From the NCBI RefSeq assembly GCF_015207035.1, contig NZ_JADEXQ010000055.1:1-41802 (forward strand): 41,802 nt of DNA, read 5' to 3'. A program made the position numbers and the translations under genes. Each line of letters starts with the position of its first letter. The stretch's first letter is position 1. The notes below the pieces were generated by a model. It had not been told where the DNA came from and did no database searches. It was given only the letters and a program-made list of their open reading frames with translations. Shown here piece by piece: positions 6,641 through 15,710 of this stretch. Source of the stretch: Romeriopsis navalis LEGE 11480. Its GTDB lineage: Bacteria; Cyanobacteriota; Cyanobacteriia; Leptolyngbyales; Leptolyngbyaceae.

Positions 6641-8551
6641 TTAAGGCCCAGGATTAATTTGCTGCTCAATTTGCTGACGCCAGCGCTGAATCTGGGTTTC
6701 AACCCGATCGCGAGCGGGATTAAAGCTAGCCGGATCCAGCTGTGACCAAGCAAAGATCCCGCCGCCAGCCAGCGCGCACAATAAGAAAAACCACAACCAA
6801 CCCAAACGACGTTTCGGGGTAAGCGCAGCGGCTGGTGCTGGACTATCTTCACCGGCAGTTTCTGGCGGTTCCGCCGATAATTCCGCTAAATCTGACTCGT
6901 CAACCTCCGGATCAGGTTCATCATCCGCGGTATTCAGCACGAGTTCTGGCTTGACGGACACTTCTACCCGTGTCAAGACGACAGAAATATTATCCGTACC
7001 ATTCTTCTCATTCGCCAGCTGAATCCAGCCATTGACGGCTTGTTCCAAGGGCATCTGCCCTCGCAGTACCGGTTCAGTGTAGTCCGACCAATATTTCTCG
7101 ACGAGATCACGATCGCTCAGCCCATCGGAACAGAGCAACAGCAAACCATCTTCTTCCAATACGTAGCGGTAGACATTGGGCCGCAGATATTCACCATCGC
7201 GCATCCCCAAGGCCTGGGTTAAGGCCCCCCCATCCGGACGTTGCATCGCATCGGCATAAACCATACGGCCCATTTTGACTTCCCGCGCCGCCACATCATC
7301 ATCCACCGTCAGTTGATGACAGGCTTGGGGCGTCAGCCAATACACTCGGCTATCACCGATACCCATCACATAGAGTTCGTGGGCATTACCCGAGACGGCC
7401 CCACTCGGCAGTTTGACCCGCTGGGGCAATTGCAGCGCAAGCACTAAAGTTGTCCCCATACGACGACGTGATTCGCGCGCTTGATCATCATTTTCATTCG
7501 AGATGACATTGTTCACCACACGGGCGATCGACTGCATCTGCTCTGCGATCAACGTGGGCGCAATCACATCGGTTTCCTGCCCCACTTCATTAATTAATGC
7601 TTGCATTTGCGGCCGCAGAAGTCGCAATGCCATTTGACTCGCGACTTCGCCGCCTTCATGCCCACCAATGCCGTCACAGACAATCGATAAACGGGCGGTC
7701 AACTCGTCCTGGACATCCGCCTTGCCCACGGGATAACAGGCATCTTCATTATGCGATCGGGCCTTGCCAGTATCCGTCGCCCCATACGCCTGCAACCGCA
7801 ACGGCGACTGCGCCGCTTGCTGTAATAGCAAATGATTGAGTTGGGTGACGATTTCGGCAATTTCGATCGTGCCGGCCTGCATCTGCTCAATCAGACTGCT
7901 CATTACGGGGGCGAGTGCCGGTTTCGCTTCCGGTAGCCAGATTCGCCAAATCCCCGCTAAATCCGACAAGTCAACCGAAGGATGGGAGGGTTGCAACTCC
8001 TGCAATCGCAATCGCCAAGACTGCACCCGCATCAAATCACTATCCAACAGCGATCCCAACATATTCCACTTCTGCAGCGGCGCCCATAATGTGGCGATCT
8101 GATACAACCAGTAGACCTGACGGGTCGCGTTTGCATCATTCCAGCGCTCTAAAATCGGAGGCAACGGTTTGCCATCCGCCGAAATGGGCGCATTATCTAG
8201 CAACAAAACTTCTTGACCGCGCCCATCGATCGAAATCCCATAAATCTCTGGCAGATTAAACCGCTGCGGATATAAATATAAGTACGGCAGCAATTCCTCC
8301 GGCACTTCCGGATATTGGGTCGGTGGTTCACTCGGCTCTAAATCAAGCCAGATATTCGGTTCACAGACGTAATAACGGGCATTTCCCGCCGTTGTGCCCA
8401 ATTTTTTTTTGGCCGCATTGTCGCCAACTGCCCAAACATAATGCCGTTCAATCTCTGTCCCACAAGCCGCGCAGACCTTCGCATTGAGGCGATTGGAAGG
8501 ACGATCGCAATTAGGATTAACACAGGCAATTTGGGGTTCCAGACGGTTCAT
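6641..8551 (-). CDS. PP2C-type serine/threonine phosphatase with N-terminal zinc-ribbon and C-terminal membrane anchor
   Basis: 636 residues. Residues 10-30 hold four Cys (C10, C15, C27, C30) in a zinc-ribbon pattern. Residues about 60-240 are a poorly conserved region that could derive from a kinase-like fold but shows no catalytic motifs. The PP2C/PPM domain spans about 253-530: SHNEDA (metal-binding Asp/Glu near 268-270), VCDGIGGHEGGEVAS (D293), RRMGTTLV, GIGDSRVYW, LLCSDGLSD and GTDNISVV. These Asp residues bind the two Mn/Mg ions, so the phosphatase should be active. An acidic Pro-rich linker leads to one membrane helix (about 583-604, LGWLWFFLLCALAGGGIFAW) and a short basic tail. It probably removes phosphate from Ser/Thr-phosphorylated proteins at the membrane; no partner kinase is adjacent. 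Confidence 0.9.
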   Translation of the reverse strand: MNRLEPQIACVNPNCDRPSNRLNAKVCAACGTEIERHYVWAVGDNAAKKKLGTTAGNARYYVCEPNIWLDLEPSEPPTQYPEVPEELLPYLYLYPQRFNLPEIYGISIDGRGQEVLLLDNAPISADGKPLPPILERWNDANATRQVYWLYQIATLWAPLQKWNMLGSLLDSDLMRVQSWRLRLQELQPSHPSVDLSDLAGIWRIWLPEAKPALAPVMSSLIEQMQAGTIEIAEIVTQLNHLLLQQAAQSPLRLQAYGATDTGKARSHNEDACYPVGKADVQDELTARLSIVCDGIGGHEGGEVASQMALRLLRPQMQALINEVGQETDVIAPTLIAEQMQSIARVVNNVISNENDDQARESRRRMGTTLVLALQLPQRVKLPSGAVSGNAHELYVMGIGDSRVYWLTPQACHQLTVDDDVAAREVKMGRMVYADAMQRPDGGALTQALGMRDGEYLRPNVYRYVLEEDGLLLLCSDGLSDRDLVEKYWSDYTEPVLRGQMPLEQAVNGWIQLANEKNGTDNISVVLTRVEVSVKPELVLNTADDEPDPEVDESDLAELSAEPPETAGEDSPAPAAALTPKRRLGWLWFFLLCALAGGGIFAWSQLDPASFNPARDRVETQIQRWRQQIEQQINPGP

Positions 8552-8758
8552 AAGGGTATCTAAACTTAAATCTTGAAAGCAGGGGGAGCCGGGGATTATT
8601 CAGACGTTTCGTAAATCGTTTGGTGAATTTGCGAAATCATGCGGGCACGCTGTGTAGGTATAGGAAATGCAGCGTTTAAGTTTATAGTTCTCCAAACTAT
8701 ACCAACGATTTAAGCGCTTGCAAAAAATCCGCAAAACCTTGATAGGTCGAATTCGACG

Positions 8759-9166
8759 ATGATTTGGTTTTTAATTGGCGCTGCGCTTTGTATCTTGGAA
8801 GCTGTCTTTCCGACCGCTTTCGTCGCTCTCGTTGCAGGTGTGAGTGCGCTGATTGTCGCATTCATCGCCCAATGGTTACCGATCGGCTTACAAATTGCCG
8901 TTTGGTTGATCTTGACAGGGCTGGGCATCTACTTCTCTCGTAGCCTCGTGAATCAACGGGCCACGCAACACTTCGATGCTCAAGATGGACAGATGATTAC
9001 GGATATTGTTCCAGGGAAACCGGGTCGCGTCCTCTACGAAGGGAATTCCTGGGCTGGTCGCTGCGAGGATCCAACATTAGCAATTGCGGCGGGAGAACAC
9101 GTCCTCATTGTGGGACGCAAAGGCACCACGTTACTCGTCCTCCCCGAGAGCGATCCCCGACATTAG
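8759..9166 (+). CDS. NfeD-like membrane protein
   Basis: 135 residues, the short form of the family without the ClpP-like protease domain. Two to three membrane helices (about residues 2-20, 22-45 and 46-62) precede a soluble OB-fold domain of about 70 residues, with GQMITDIVPGKPGRVLYEGNSW and the closing GEHVLIVGRKGTTLLVLP. NfeD proteins partner with SPFH/stomatin proteins in membrane microdomains, and such a gene follows about 100 bases downstream on the same strand, which supports the call. The gene is divergent from the PP2C gene. Confidence 0.9.
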   Translation: MIWFLIGAALCILEAVFPTAFVALVAGVSALIVAFIAQWLPIGLQIAVWLILTGLGIYFSRSLVNQRATQHFDAQDGQMITDIVPGKPGRVLYEGNSWAGRCEDPTLAIAAGEHVLIVGRKGTTLLVLPESDPRH

Positions 9167-9270
9167 TTGAGGATTTAGGGTCTGCCTGGGGCAACCTACG
9201 GGAAACCGCAGACAAGACCATTTGAACTGTTCGAATCAAAATATTTGATAGTAAACCAGGAGTTTGACTT

Positions 9271-10212
9271 ATGTGGCCATGGATTGCCGCGATCGCTATC
9301 GCCGGTGGCGCTGCCGCTTCCAGCGTCAAGATTGTGGAGCAGGGAAATGAAGCGCTAATCGAGCGCCTTGGACAATACAACGGCAAGCTGGAGCCGGGTC
9401 TAAGCTTTTTGATTCCGGGTCTCGATCGCGTCGCTTATCAGGAAACAATCCGCGAAAAAGTGATCGACGTACCGCCCCAGAACTGCATCACCCGCGATAA
9501 CGTTTCGATCGCGGCGGACGCGGTAATTTACTGGCGCATCGTCGATATGGAGAAGGCTTACTACAAGGTGCAAAACCTGCAGTCGGCAATCTTGAATCTG
9601 GCTTTGGCACAGATTCGCTCGGAGATGGGTAAGCTCGAACTCGACGAAACCTTCACGGCCCGCGAACAGATTAACGAAATTCTGCTGCGAGAGCTGGACA
9701 TTGCCACTGATCCTTGGGGCGTCAAAGTCACTCGGGTCGAGCTGAAGGAAATCGCCCCCGCGAAAGCCGTCATGGACTCGATGGAACTGCAAATGGCCGC
9801 CGAACGGAAGAAGCGGGCCGCAGTCCTAACATCAGAAGGGGCGCGGGAATCGGCGGTCAACAGCGCTCGGGGTGAGGCCGAATCCCAAGTCCTCGAAGCA
9901 GAAGCACGGAAGAAATCAACTGTCCTGAATGCCGAAGCCGAGCAGCAGCGGATTGTCTTGGAAGCTCAAGCCAACCGTCAGCAACAGGTCTTGAAAGCCC
10001 AAGCAACAGCGGAAGCGGTGAATATCGTGACCCAAGCCCTCGGCAGCGATCCAAATGCCGGGAATGCAGCGCAGTTATTGATGGCATTGGGCTATCTCAA
10101 CATGGGTGAGACGATCGGTAAGAGCGATAGCAGCAAGGTGCTATTTATGGATCCAGGCAGCATTCCCGCGTCGATCCAGAGCATGATGGCGATCGTTGAG
10201 AAACCCCAGTAA
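9271..10212 (+). CDS. SPFH/stomatin-family membrane scaffold protein
   Basis: 313 residues with AGGAG 9 bases before the ATG. One N-terminal membrane segment ([16 protein letters not shown]) anchors the protein. The SPFH (band 7) domain follows at about 20-190, with [52 protein letters not shown] and [24 protein letters not shown]. An Ala/Glu/Gln-rich helical region (about 190-260) is the usual oligomerisation stem, and the short C-terminal part ends AIVEKPQ. Such proteins build ring-like scaffolds in the membrane and influence membrane protein turnover. Co-directional with nfeD and closed by an intrinsic terminator, so the two look like one operon. Confidence 0.92.
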
Positions 10213-12919: not shown

Positions 12920-13135
12920 TCAATTAGCCTGATCGAGTTTATCAAGCAGAGTCAGGCCACGCCGGACATCACCTTTCGCGGCGAGGACTTGAAAGCGGGT
13001 GTATGCATCTGACTCCGCTAAAGCCATAGTTGATAGTTCTTCGATTAGTTTGTTCAGGCTGATGCCTTTTGATGCAGCGAGATGTTTGAGACGACGGTGT
13101 TTATCATCAGGAAGCCGAATTGTGAGTGTTGCCAT
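12920..13135 (-). CDS. Ribbon-helix-helix antitoxin (CopG/Arc type)
   Basis: 71 residues. The first 40 form a classic RHH domain: strand ATLTIRLPDDKHRRL, then helices LKHLAASKGISLNKLIEELSTMAL. The C-terminal 30 residues (RFQVLAAKGDVRRGLTLLDKL) would wrap the toxin. It follows the PIN gene with three bases between; its ribosome site AGAGG sits on the last codons of the PIN gene, so translation of the two is probably coupled. It should neutralise the PIN toxin and repress the operon through the palindrome at 13568-13591. Toxin-first order is the reverse of most type II pairs. Confidence 0.85.
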   Translation of the reverse strand: MATLTIRLPDDKHRRLKHLAASKGISLNKLIEELSTMALAESDAYTRFQVLAAKGDVRRGLTLLDKLDQAN

Positions 13136-13138
13136 GGT

Positions 13139-13561
13139 TTACCTCTGGAGAAGTTGCTCAGGTTTCAAAATCGATAAATCGGGAAAAGTTAGCTCTGTTG
13201 CTTGAAAATCTCGAACATTGTTCGTCACAATTACCTTGGCATTACCAGCCACAGCTAGCTCTATCACATGGTTATCAGCTTCGTCTCGCAGATTTGGTCG
13301 CCAGAGGTAGTAGATATTCACCCATTCACTCACGTTCAGAAATGCGGCTAGTAGTTCTTCAATCTCTGTTGTACTCAACGGACATTGGCGTAGGATCTCT
13401 GCACGTTGCATAACGGCTTCATATTCAGCAAACAGAGCCGTTCCCATCAAGGGATGATAGACCCCGTTAAAACAAGCACGAATCAGATCCCGACTTGGCC
13501 CTTGAGGACCAATCAAGGCGCTGATAAATACGCTGGTATCAACAACAATATTCGGACTCAT
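13139..13561 (-). CDS. PIN-domain ribonuclease toxin (COG1569-like)
   Basis: 140 residues from the ATG at 13561, chosen because GGGA lies upstream at a good distance and the longer frame would have to read through a 24-bp palindrome. Motifs are those of PIN ribonucleases: D8 in NIVVDTSVFISAL, an acidic pair in LFAEYEAVM (E46/E48), DEADNHVIELA (D93, D96) and VTNNVRDF (D118). These acids coordinate Mg2+/Mn2+ for RNA cleavage, so the enzyme looks intact. The LRDEADNHVIELAVAGNAKVIVTNN pattern places it with PIN proteins annotated as putative toxin components. Paired with the downstream RHH antitoxin. Target RNA unknown. Confidence 0.87.
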   Translation of the reverse strand: MSPNIVVDTSVFISALIGPQGPSRDLIRACFNGVYHPLMGTALFAEYEAVMQRAEILRQCPLSTTEIEELLAAFLNVSEWVNIYYLWRPNLRDEADNHVIELAVAGNAKVIVTNNVRDFQATELTFPDLSILKPEQLLQR

Positions 13562-13567
13562 ATTCCC

Positions 13568-13591
13568 AATGATAGCGTATACGCTATCATT
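13568..13591. promoter_or_regulatory. 24-bp perfect palindrome, putative operator of the PIN-RHH operon
   Basis: The half site AATGATAGCGTA is followed directly by its exact complement, so all 24 bases are symmetric. It ends six bases before the PIN start codon and touches a possible -10 box. RHH antitoxins bind such inverted sites, so autoregulation is the natural reading; a hairpin in the mRNA leader is an alternative. Confidence 0.75.
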
Positions 13592-13614
13592 GCTCACACC
13601 TGAGGCATATTCAA
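13586..13614 (-). promoter_or_regulatory. Possible sigma-70 promoter of the PIN-RHH operon
   Basis: On the minus strand TTGAAT (13614-13609) and AATGAT (13591-13586) are 17 bases apart, a reasonable -35/-10 pair. The -10 box overlaps the palindrome, so a bound antitoxin would block it. The match to consensus is partial. Confidence 0.35.
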
Positions 13615-13698: not shown

Positions 13699-14385
13699 TC
13701 AGCTTTGACTAAGTTGTTTAATCAAATCAGGCTTTTTCAACTTTGTATAATCACTCAAACCGCGTTTTTTCGCCATTTTCTTGAGTTCCGAGACCTTAAA
13801 CTCTTCTAGGAGAACGGGATCTGTAATCACCTCTGGTAAAGGCTGTGGTTCAAGATAGAAGACCGATTTTAAAGTATCCAGTTTTTTGCCCTTCGTAATG
13901 CCGCATTTTAATTTGGTGATTGGCGTAAAGTTTTTCCAATATTGACGAGGTGCTTCATCGACACGACTGACGGCTACTGCTAGCTTAACGCCTTTAAGCG
14001 GTGAGCCAGGTACGTTCAGGAGATATTGGAACGCCGCGTAGATTTCATCATGGGAGGCAAGTGACAGGTTGATTTTAGGTACTTGTTCACCTGTCAGGAC
14101 ACGACAAAGTTCCTCTGTTATTGGTTGTTCGTCAGCAACAATGCACCACACACGCTCAACCCCTGCGGCTTCTGCAATTGCATAAACCAAGGAATTTCCC
14201 ATAACTTGGTATTGCTTTTTACTAATTTCTTTAACGATGAGAGGAACCCAATTTCTCTGGTTGTCTTGTCGCAAAAGTTGAGCGCCAGCTTGAACAATAA
14301 AGTCTGACAATTCAGCGCCGTCACCTGGATCAATTTCTTCTAAGTACAGATATAGTAGTGACCCGACATTAGTTAGTGGCTTCAT
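13699..14385 (-). CDS. ParB-like protein with C-terminal SAP/Rho_N-type motif
   Basis: 228 residues. Residues about 20-90 resemble the ParB N-terminal nucleotide/DNA-handling fold (LSDFIVQAGAQLLRQ, NWVPLIVKEISKKQYQVMGNSLVYAIAEAAGVERVWCIV: the pattern of a preferred-value strand, a recall strand and an Ala-rich helix). The middle (100-190) is unassigned. The last 35 residues, FKVSELKKMAKKRGLSDYTKLKKPDLIKQL, form a SAP/Rho_N helix-extended-loop-helix, normally a nucleic-acid-binding element. The start codon overlaps the stop of the upstream nuclease-ParA gene by four bases (ATGA), so the two are one translationally coupled operon. Lower GC than the flanks. The pair looks like a par-type cassette; function is not known. 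Confidence 0.68.
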   Translation of the reverse strand: MKPLTNVGSLLYLYLEEIDPGDGAELSDFIVQAGAQLLRQDNQRNWVPLIVKEISKKQYQVMGNSLVYAIAEAAGVERVWCIVADEQPITEELCRVLTGEQVPKINLSLASHDEIYAAFQYLLNVPGSPLKGVKLAVAVSRVDEAPRQYWKNFTPITKLKCGITKGKKLDTLKSVFYLEPQPLPEVITDPVLLEEFKVSELKKMAKKRGLSDYTKLKKPDLIKQLSQS

Positions 14386-15710
14386 TGTAAAAAATACTCC
14401 TTGGCCAAGTTTTTATAGTAATCTCTAGCCGTTTTATCACGGTAAACTGCGGGAATAGTAGCAAATGCTGCATTTGCGATGTTAGCGTAAGCCGGAACCT
14501 CAAACACCTCTAGATTCTTATTTGCCTGAGTGTAATGTGGGAAAAAATAAGGCAGTAAATCAATTTGTTTCTTGTGTTGCTTACATAAATCTAAGAGGGC
14601 TTTTTGAGCTGCCTGCTTTTGTGCTGGCGTAATTTTTTCGCCGTTAAAAAAGATAGGCAGTGCAATTGGCCCACCATCCCCACGTGTTTCCTGAATTTGT
14701 AGAATATAGTCCTTGATTGCAATCGCTGCATTTTTCAAGGAGAAAATATTATTGTGTTTGGTTGGAATTAAGACGACATCTGACGCATAGACTGCATTTT
14801 GGCTAAAATTTAGCCAATTTGGTGGTGCATCAACCAAAATATAATCATACTGAGATTGAAGAGTTGCTAGCCCCTCAGCTAAAGACGACGGCTGCAAAAC
14901 GGTTTGCAGCTCTGGGTCGTTTGGCGCGTAGGCTAGCTTTTCATCCACAGGAATAACGCCAAATTCAAGCACCCTGCCATCTTTTAGTGAAAGACGATGC
15001 TGCCGAATAGCTGCTTCAAGATTTTTGTCCTTAGAGTCCAAGCACTGGTAGAACGTATCTGGCTCCAAACTCATGCCAAGACCATGGGTTAGATCTTGCT
15101 GATTTGGGTCAAAGTCAACAACAAGAACTTTCTTTCCCGCAAGTGTGAGAATTGCAGCAAGATTAATCACTGTGGTTGTTTTACCAATGCCACCTTTGTT
15201 GTTGTAGATAGCGACTTTGAGTGCCCGTTGAGGTACTTGCAATTTTTGACGTAACTCTTCGGCAATCTTTTCCGTGTTATCTGCATTCACCTCCATGCAG
15301 GATGTCGCTGGGTAAATCACCTTACCGTGCTTACGGAATAACTGAATATGCAAGGAATTCGATATTAATCCCCATTCAGCCGTGCGAGCCTCTTTTGTGA
15401 GTAGGTAGCCTTTCAACTGCTTCACAGTTGAACGATAAGATCTTGACCCTGCGGATAAGTCAATATGTCTACCTTTAATCTCAATAAATATAGAAGGTGA
15501 ATTCTTAGTAGTTACAAAGACATCTTGAGGATTGCTATTTTTTCTCAAGGCATAGTCCACAGGCCCACGTGCTGTTGAAAACTCCGGAATAATTTCTGTC
15601 GCCTCGAATCCCAGCTCTGCAAAGAGCCCTGGATTAATCCATAAGGATCGAACAAGGGCTTCACTGGCTGCATCTGGCAACTTTTGCCATGCTTCCCGCA
15701 AACTTCCCAT
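14382..15710 (-). CDS. PD-(D/E)XK nuclease - ParA/MinD ATPase fusion
   Basis: 442 residues with two clear parts. Residues about 15-135 resemble the N-terminal nuclease domain of type I restriction HsdR: LFAELGFEATEIIPEFS, GPVDYAL and FIEIKG give E43, D52, E77 and K79, and KQLKGY gives the Q98-xxx-Y102 motif of RecB-like nucleases, followed by WGLISNSLHIQLFRKHG. All key residues are present. Residues 165-442 are a ParA ATPase: deviant Walker A NNKGGIGKTTT (K172, K177), LVVDFDPNQQDLTHGLG, and YILVDAPPNWLNFSQNA. ParA proteins act as ATP-dependent DNA-bound dimers that need a ParB-type partner, which is encoded right downstream with a 4-base overlap. AT-rich composition suggests horizontal origin. 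Roles in partition or in defence are both possible. Confidence 0.82.
   Translation of the reverse strand: MGSLREAWQKLPDAASEALVRSLWINPGLFAELGFEATEIIPEFSTARGPVDYALRKNSNPQDVFVTTKNSPSIFIEIKGRHIDLSAGSRSYRSTVKQLKGYLLTKEARTAEWGLISNSLHIQLFRKHGKVIYPATSCMEVNADNTEKIAEELRQKLQVPQRALKVAIYNNKGGIGKTTTVINLAAILTLAGKKVLVVDFDPNQQDLTHGLGMSLEPDTFYQCLDSKDKNLEAAIRQHRLSLKDGRVLEFGVIPVDEKLAYAPNDPELQTVLQPSSLAEGLATLQSQYDYILVDAPPNWLNFSQNAVYASDVVLIPTKHNNIFSLKNAAIAIKDYILQIQETRGDGGPIALPIFFNGEKITPAQKQAAQKALLDLCKQHKKQIDLLPYFFPHYTQANKNLEVFEVPAYANIANAAFATIPAVYRDKTARDYYKNLAKEYFLQ

Follow-up and report, generated by a model that had tools for sequence, protein, structure and literature searches.

A ParA ATPase fused to an HsdR/RecB-like putative nuclease, with a ParB-fold partner, in Cyanobacteria

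The window analysed here, a 41,802-nucleotide stretch of Romeriopsis navalis LEGE 11480 (contig NZ_JADEXQ010000055.1), carries a two-gene cassette in which gene A encodes a ParA ATPase fused to a putative nuclease and gene B encodes a protein with a ParB/sulfiredoxin (Srx) fold. The N-terminal domain of A looks like a PD-(D/E)XK nuclease of the HsdR/RecB type and is putatively active, as judged from residue conservation and a predicted structure. What the A-B pair does in the cell, DNA cleavage included, we infer from this anatomy. Our tentative first choice is that a ParA-type ATP switch controls a nucleoid-bound nuclease with an accessory role in DNA surveillance, DNA quality or maintenance. 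It is followed, in order of decreasing probability, by a partition module, a chromosome-maintenance nuclease and a catalytically silent nuclease fold. The features of the cassette are as follows.

14382..15710, minus strand: gene A, nuclease-ParA fusion of 442 residues (open reading frame, Pfam AAA_31 and HSDR_N_2, homologues, AlphaFold2 model)
15276..15710, minus strand: putative PD-(D/E)XK (HsdR/RecB-like) nuclease domain, A residues 1-145 (model topology, HSDR_N_2, invariant residues)
15555..15557, minus strand: D52, putative metal-binding aspartate (invariant in 46/46 relatives and in 4/4 divergent ones)
15474..15482, minus strand: E77-I78-K79, (D/E)XK motif (E77 and K79 invariant in 46/46 and in 4/4 divergent relatives)
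15405..15419, minus strand: Q98-xxx-Y102, RecB/HsdR QxxxY motif (invariant in 46/46)
14385..15230, minus strand: ParA ATPase domain, A residues 161-442 (Z score of 27.2 to Helicobacter pylori Soj)
15174..15197, minus strand: deviant Walker A motif KGGIGKTT, A residues 172-179 (K172, G173, G174 and K177 invariant)
14382..14385, minus strand: ATGA, 4-bp overlap of the gene A stop and the gene B start (sequence)
13699..14385, minus strand: gene B, ParB/Srx-like partner of 228 residues (adjoins A; AlphaFold2 model)
14080..14361, minus strand: ParB/sulfiredoxin-fold domain without the GERRxRA CTP (cytidine triphosphate) motif, B residues 9-102 (ParB_N, ParB fold match, hhalign)
13825..14079, minus strand: helical module, duplicated in some relatives, B residues 103-187 (model; second BLAST matches in larger B proteins)
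13702..13824, minus strand: Rho_N/SAP putative nucleic-acid-binding domain, B residues 188-228 (Rho_N; fold match to Rho)

Anatomy of the fusion and its partner

The open reading frame of A, its strand and its ParA motifs, re-read from the sequence, are as described in an earlier note made from the letters of this DNA alone. The ParA domain matches Pfam AAA_31 (E 2.6e-30) and, in fold comparisons, aligns with H. pylori Soj over 253 residues and also resembles McdA (Z 24.4). The signature lysine of the deviant Walker A motif (K172) is present, as is K177, and both are invariant across the family alignment.

The nuclease domain of the window protein, taken alone, matches HSDR_N_2 weakly, with an E value of 2.2e-4 that falls short of the Pfam cut-off; 40 of the 43 aligned relatives match the same family, the best with an E value of 1.6e-8. 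In the AlphaFold2 model of A, which has a predicted local distance difference test score (pLDDT) of 89, residues 17-128 follow the alpha-beta-beta-beta-alpha-beta order of the PD-(D/E)XK core (helix 17-32; strands 40-46, 49-55 and 74-78; helix 90-103; strands 113-117 and 121-128). Fold searches with the whole model returned lists filled by ParA chains, and a PDB sequence search with this domain alone gave no credible match; support for the nuclease fold thus comes from Pfam, model topology and conserved residues. Together these bear out the proposal of the earlier note that a nuclease and a ParA domain are fused in one chain.

Six residues (E17, D52, E77, K79, Q98 and Y102) are invariant across an alignment of 46 A relatives. 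Five of them, E17, D52, E77, K79 and Y102, are also kept in four divergent plasmid relatives of subfamily II that are only ~26-30% identical, in which Q98 is replaced by G. HsdR and RecB-like nucleases are known to carry the QxxxY motif (PMC4454674). The earlier note had built the active site from E43, D52, E77 and K79 plus Q98-xxx-Y102, and only E43 has to be given up: this position is E in only 21 of the 46 relatives and Q in 19, so that, by the alignment, E43 is not catalytic and E17 is the better active-site candidate. Pairwise ratios of nonsynonymous to synonymous substitution rates (dN/dS) are ~0.13-0.17 for the nuclease domain and 0.08-0.15 for the ParA domain, values by which both domains are maintained by purifying selection. 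Residue invariance and purifying selection together rule out a chance motif.

The same data bear on the possibility that the nuclease fold is catalytically silent and serves an ordinary ParA as a DNA-binding or dimerisation domain. Two cases point in this direction: a relative in another family (locus L227, 9049-10398) has E in place of K79 and Q in place of Y102 and may be a naturally nuclease-dead variant, and subfamily II has G at position 98. Retention of E17, D52, E77 and K79 across such distant proteins argues against silence, as does the low dN/dS of the nuclease domain, and we regard this explanation as improbable.

Gene B was missing from the earlier note. Its product is modelled with a pLDDT of 91, and its fold matches were also obtained by Foldseek. 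ParB_N is found in 44 of 45 members of the B family and Rho_N in all 45. Residues 9-102 resemble Myxococcus xanthus ParB (Z 12.6), and residues 188-228 resemble the N-terminal domain of Rho (Z 7.2, root-mean-square deviation 1.1). In ParB, the GERRxRA motif mediates CTP and ParB-ParB contacts (PMC7333895). Profile comparison with hhalign sets the GERRYRA of ParB opposite NSLVYAI in B, and the arginines of the motif are replaced across the B family by F/L66, I/V67 and A69; on this alignment, the CTP motif is absent from B. No match to the helix-turn-helix of ParB was found in B, where the family shows only Rho_N/SAP and residues 103-187 are barely covered by the fold search. The pair therefore departs from an ordinary plasmid-type parAB, one of three outcomes that the earlier note had set against its own proposal. 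Neither of the other two occurred, as the PD-(D/E)XK fold stands and so do its residues, E43 apart.

A and B adjoin in the class I loci in which both are visible, and they overlap by 4 nt in 29 of 45 loci. BLAST comparisons indicate that the helical module of B is missing in some relatives and duplicated in others; the duplication spans about residues 105-178 in the B proteins of L101, L106, L115, L119, L121 and L127.

Distribution and movement of the cassette

The pair was surveyed in 291 genomes of the cyanobacterial class, representing 130 genera, in which A was counted at E <= 1e-60 and B at 1e-15. By these thresholds, A is present in 78 genomes and 43 genera, and B in 73 genomes. Full-length relatives of the pair occur at 47 loci in genome contigs, all of them cyanobacterial except one labelled Tatlockia, and the A-B pair appears specific to Cyanobacteria as far as searched. 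The exception, L028 (Tatlockia, Legionellaceae), clusters within Cyanobacteria and its contig is probably misbinned. Strong matches to subfamily II, in which A is ~480 residues long and B usually lacks Rho_N, occur in 17 of the 291 genomes at E <= 1e-60. The genome of the window holds one copy of each subfamily, the second being a divergent nuclease-ParA/ParB-like cassette on another contig (L002, 1072-3053, contig C108).

Most copies in near-complete genomes are chromosomal, and the main chromosomal contigs of many such genomes carry one. Among 72,556 plasmid records searched, seven, all cyanobacterial, carry the fusion with its partner. In the tree, plasmid rows fall inside both subfamilies and three changes are needed to account for them. 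No phage in the phage collection searched covers the fusion; one IMG/VR contig (L130) bears it, and the viral nature of this contig is not established.

The window cassette looks chromosomal and acquired, as judged from composition and gene surroundings. GC content at third codon positions (GC3) is 0.38 in both A and B, against 0.59-0.68 in those surrounding chromosomal genes that were compared. The cassette lies within an AT-rich stretch of ~3.5 kb, bounded by an AhpC/TSA-family gene and by an alcohol-dehydrogenase-like gene, the latter named by reading its sequence. The description of a chromosomal, AT-rich cassette in the earlier note holds, and acquisition is likely to have been recent. 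The same stretch holds a toxin-antitoxin pair, a PIN toxin (TIGR00305) and a ribbon-helix-helix antitoxin, which adjoins the cassette at 12920-13597. A comparison with empty sites yielded nothing, as the two genes flanking the stretch are far apart or on separate contigs wherever both could be placed in relatives.

Comparisons between loci indicate that the cassette moves alone, as a 2.1-2.2 kb unit, between unrelated chromosome and plasmid sites. For instance, Pelatocladus (L038) and Fischerella (L049) sequences are 94-96% identical only over 7856-10041, from ~140 bp upstream of A to just past B, and their flanks are unrelated. The same cassette-only likeness is found in the Nostoc group, between L035 and L042 and between L034 and L041. 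No gene other than A and B is common to all loci.

Gene A is interrupted or frameshifted in L049, L048 and L054, with gene B still open in the first two. One chromosome carries, besides an intact cassette, a fragmentary one at a distance of ~6 kb (L142, 16301-19262). An identical protein is encoded by the Leptolyngbya boryana plasmid pLBA and by a 6.26-Mb contig in a different genome (L059, L105), where the element may be integrated.

Possible roles in partition, chromosome maintenance or DNA surveillance

Carriage on plasmids, and the pairing of a ParA with a ParB-fold protein in one operon, suggest a partition or stability module in which A and B segregate their own replicon and the nuclease is auxiliary, cutting, for example, unresolved or competitor DNA; chromosomal copies would then be captured plasmid modules. 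The 12.6-kb plasmid ABRG53g bears a divergent form of the cassette and has no annotation for any other partition protein. Two plasmids of Nostoc sp. UHCC 0870 have backbones that are 90-94% identical, yet identity between their cassettes reaches just 67-71%, a pattern that incompatibility determinants might show; a third plasmid bears a subfamily II cassette. However, the cassette plasmids of this strain have ParM as well, together with one or two ParA or ParAB loci of the classical kind, B has no CTP motif, and most copies in near-complete genomes are chromosomal. Nor did scans for k-mers, inverted repeats and iterons in 48 regions upstream and 48 regions downstream reveal a centromere-like (parS) site common to the loci, although locus-specific sites could have escaped them; the scans returned only HIP1 (GCGATCGC) and a conserved start-codon context, ATGAGCATGACA. 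A partition role, also raised in the earlier note, is weakened by the stand-alone chromosomal copies, by the other partition systems on the plasmids and by the retention of A without B in one genus. We consider it unlikely, if less so than the two explanations ranked below it.

Structure in the leader RNA was considered and set aside. Stem-loops are strong upstream of A in some loci (e.g., L038 and L035), weak overall and absent in the window; the mean folding z is -0.86 compared with -0.27 in controls (p 0.02), a difference kept out of the argument. Strong inverted repeats lie just upstream of A in L038 and L049 (about 7900-7990) and in L035 and L042, and their sequence differs between the two groups.

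The genus in question has genomes of 2.1-2.8 Mb and carries A in 11 of 11 species, and no B was found among the genomes searched. The rows lacking B form one supported clade in the tree. In six of the eight genomes inspected, A adjoins genes that read as rpsB-tsf, and in the other two it adjoins recJ. E17, D52, E77, K79, Q98 and the Walker residues are intact in all eight, and position 102 is L. In L208 (6210-9889) and L209 (9233-13050), the B-less A is convergent with recJ, with a 10-bp overlap.

Such fixation fits a chromosome-maintenance or repair nuclease whose ParA domain positions it on the nucleoid; B would be an optional loader, and there would be no role in conflict. The conserved synteny agrees with it, as do the purifying selection on A and the neighbours of the chromosomal copies, which are of housekeeping type and without defence islands. 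On the other side, A was not found in ~73% of the sampled genomes of the class. Core repair genes do not usually move horizontally as a unit in the way this cassette does, and just two genomes show the recJ neighbourhood. This explanation is somewhat less probable than partition.

DNA surveillance, our first choice, has itself several points to answer. PADLOC 2.0.0 has no model for the system, A giving weak P-loop matches only and B none. Around 17 chromosomal copies, 126 neighbouring genes matched 76 PADLOC models at 1e-10 and 125 control genes of these genomes matched 114; the neighbours thus show no excess of defence genes, in a sample small enough for a modest effect to be missed. The guard against foreign DNA proposed in the earlier note is, on these two results, unsupported so far. 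A housekeeping role would explain the fixation of A without B in one genus no less well than surveillance, and at least one lineage can do without the nuclease, as K79 and Y102 are lost in L227. Regulation of A by B is assumed from analogy with ParA and ParB. An accessory element-control module fits the patchy presence, minimal-unit movement and plasmid carriage of the cassette, and a host function fits its fixation without B.

Proposed mechanism and relation to known systems

Under the surveillance reading, A would dimerise on ATP and coat the nucleoid, as ParA proteins do. B would bind DNA via its tail and either recruit A or trigger its ATPase, which would bring the tethered nuclease to particular DNA, incoming or unresolved molecules for example, and activate it there. 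The ParA switch would thereby serve this nuclease as the helicase motor serves HsdR. The cassette spreads as a 2.1-2.2 kb unit, like accessory element-control genes, and one lineage has retained A as a fixed chromosomal gene in the absence of B.

The cassette resembles several known systems in part. It shares with Soj-Spo0J-type ParA-ParB pairs a ParA domain with the signature lysine and Walker motifs, a ParB/Srx-fold partner and a two-gene operon. Type Ia ParA proteins have a helix-turn-helix where A has the nuclease domain (PMC9178275), and B differs from ParB in lacking GERRxRA and in its SAP-like C-terminal domain, with no parS-like site found. HsdR of type I restriction (EcoR124I) likewise tethers a PD-(D/E)XK nuclease with QxxxY to an ATPase (PMC4454674); in contrast, the ATPase of A is of the ParA type rather than a superfamily 2 (SF2) helicase, and no HsdM or HsdS is common to the loci. 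GmrS and the ParB-like DNases of polyvalent proteins are ParB/Srx-fold proteins tied to conflict systems (PMC5512222), whereas here the partner is a ParA, which itself carries the nuclease. McdAB, which positions carboxysomes, also pairs a cyanobacterial ParA-family ATPase with a partner, but McdA has SGGQGKT and no signature lysine (PMC9178275), whereas A has KGGIGKT and a nuclease.

A search confined to the open-access literature turned up no paper on a ParA-HsdR_N fusion. Both folds are already known, and it is the fusion and its pairing with a ParB-like protein that seem undescribed. It is possible, and we hold this more loosely than the surveillance reading, that a restriction-type nuclease is here under the control of a ParA ATP switch in place of a helicase motor, and that a ParB-like protein without the CTP motif senses the DNA; the pair would then form a class of its own among DNA-interference or DNA-quality systems, known so far only from Cyanobacteria.

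The family is common in Cyanobacteria and small enough for transfer to laboratory hosts. It also provides natural contrasts for testing: paired and B-less forms of A, divergent subfamilies, and a relative in which the catalytic lysine is lost. To our knowledge, the established work of ParA ATPases is to move DNA and cell cargos, and DNA cutting is not part of it. Should the nuclease be active, the nucleoid-riding ParA switch would also be used to place or license DNA cleavage.
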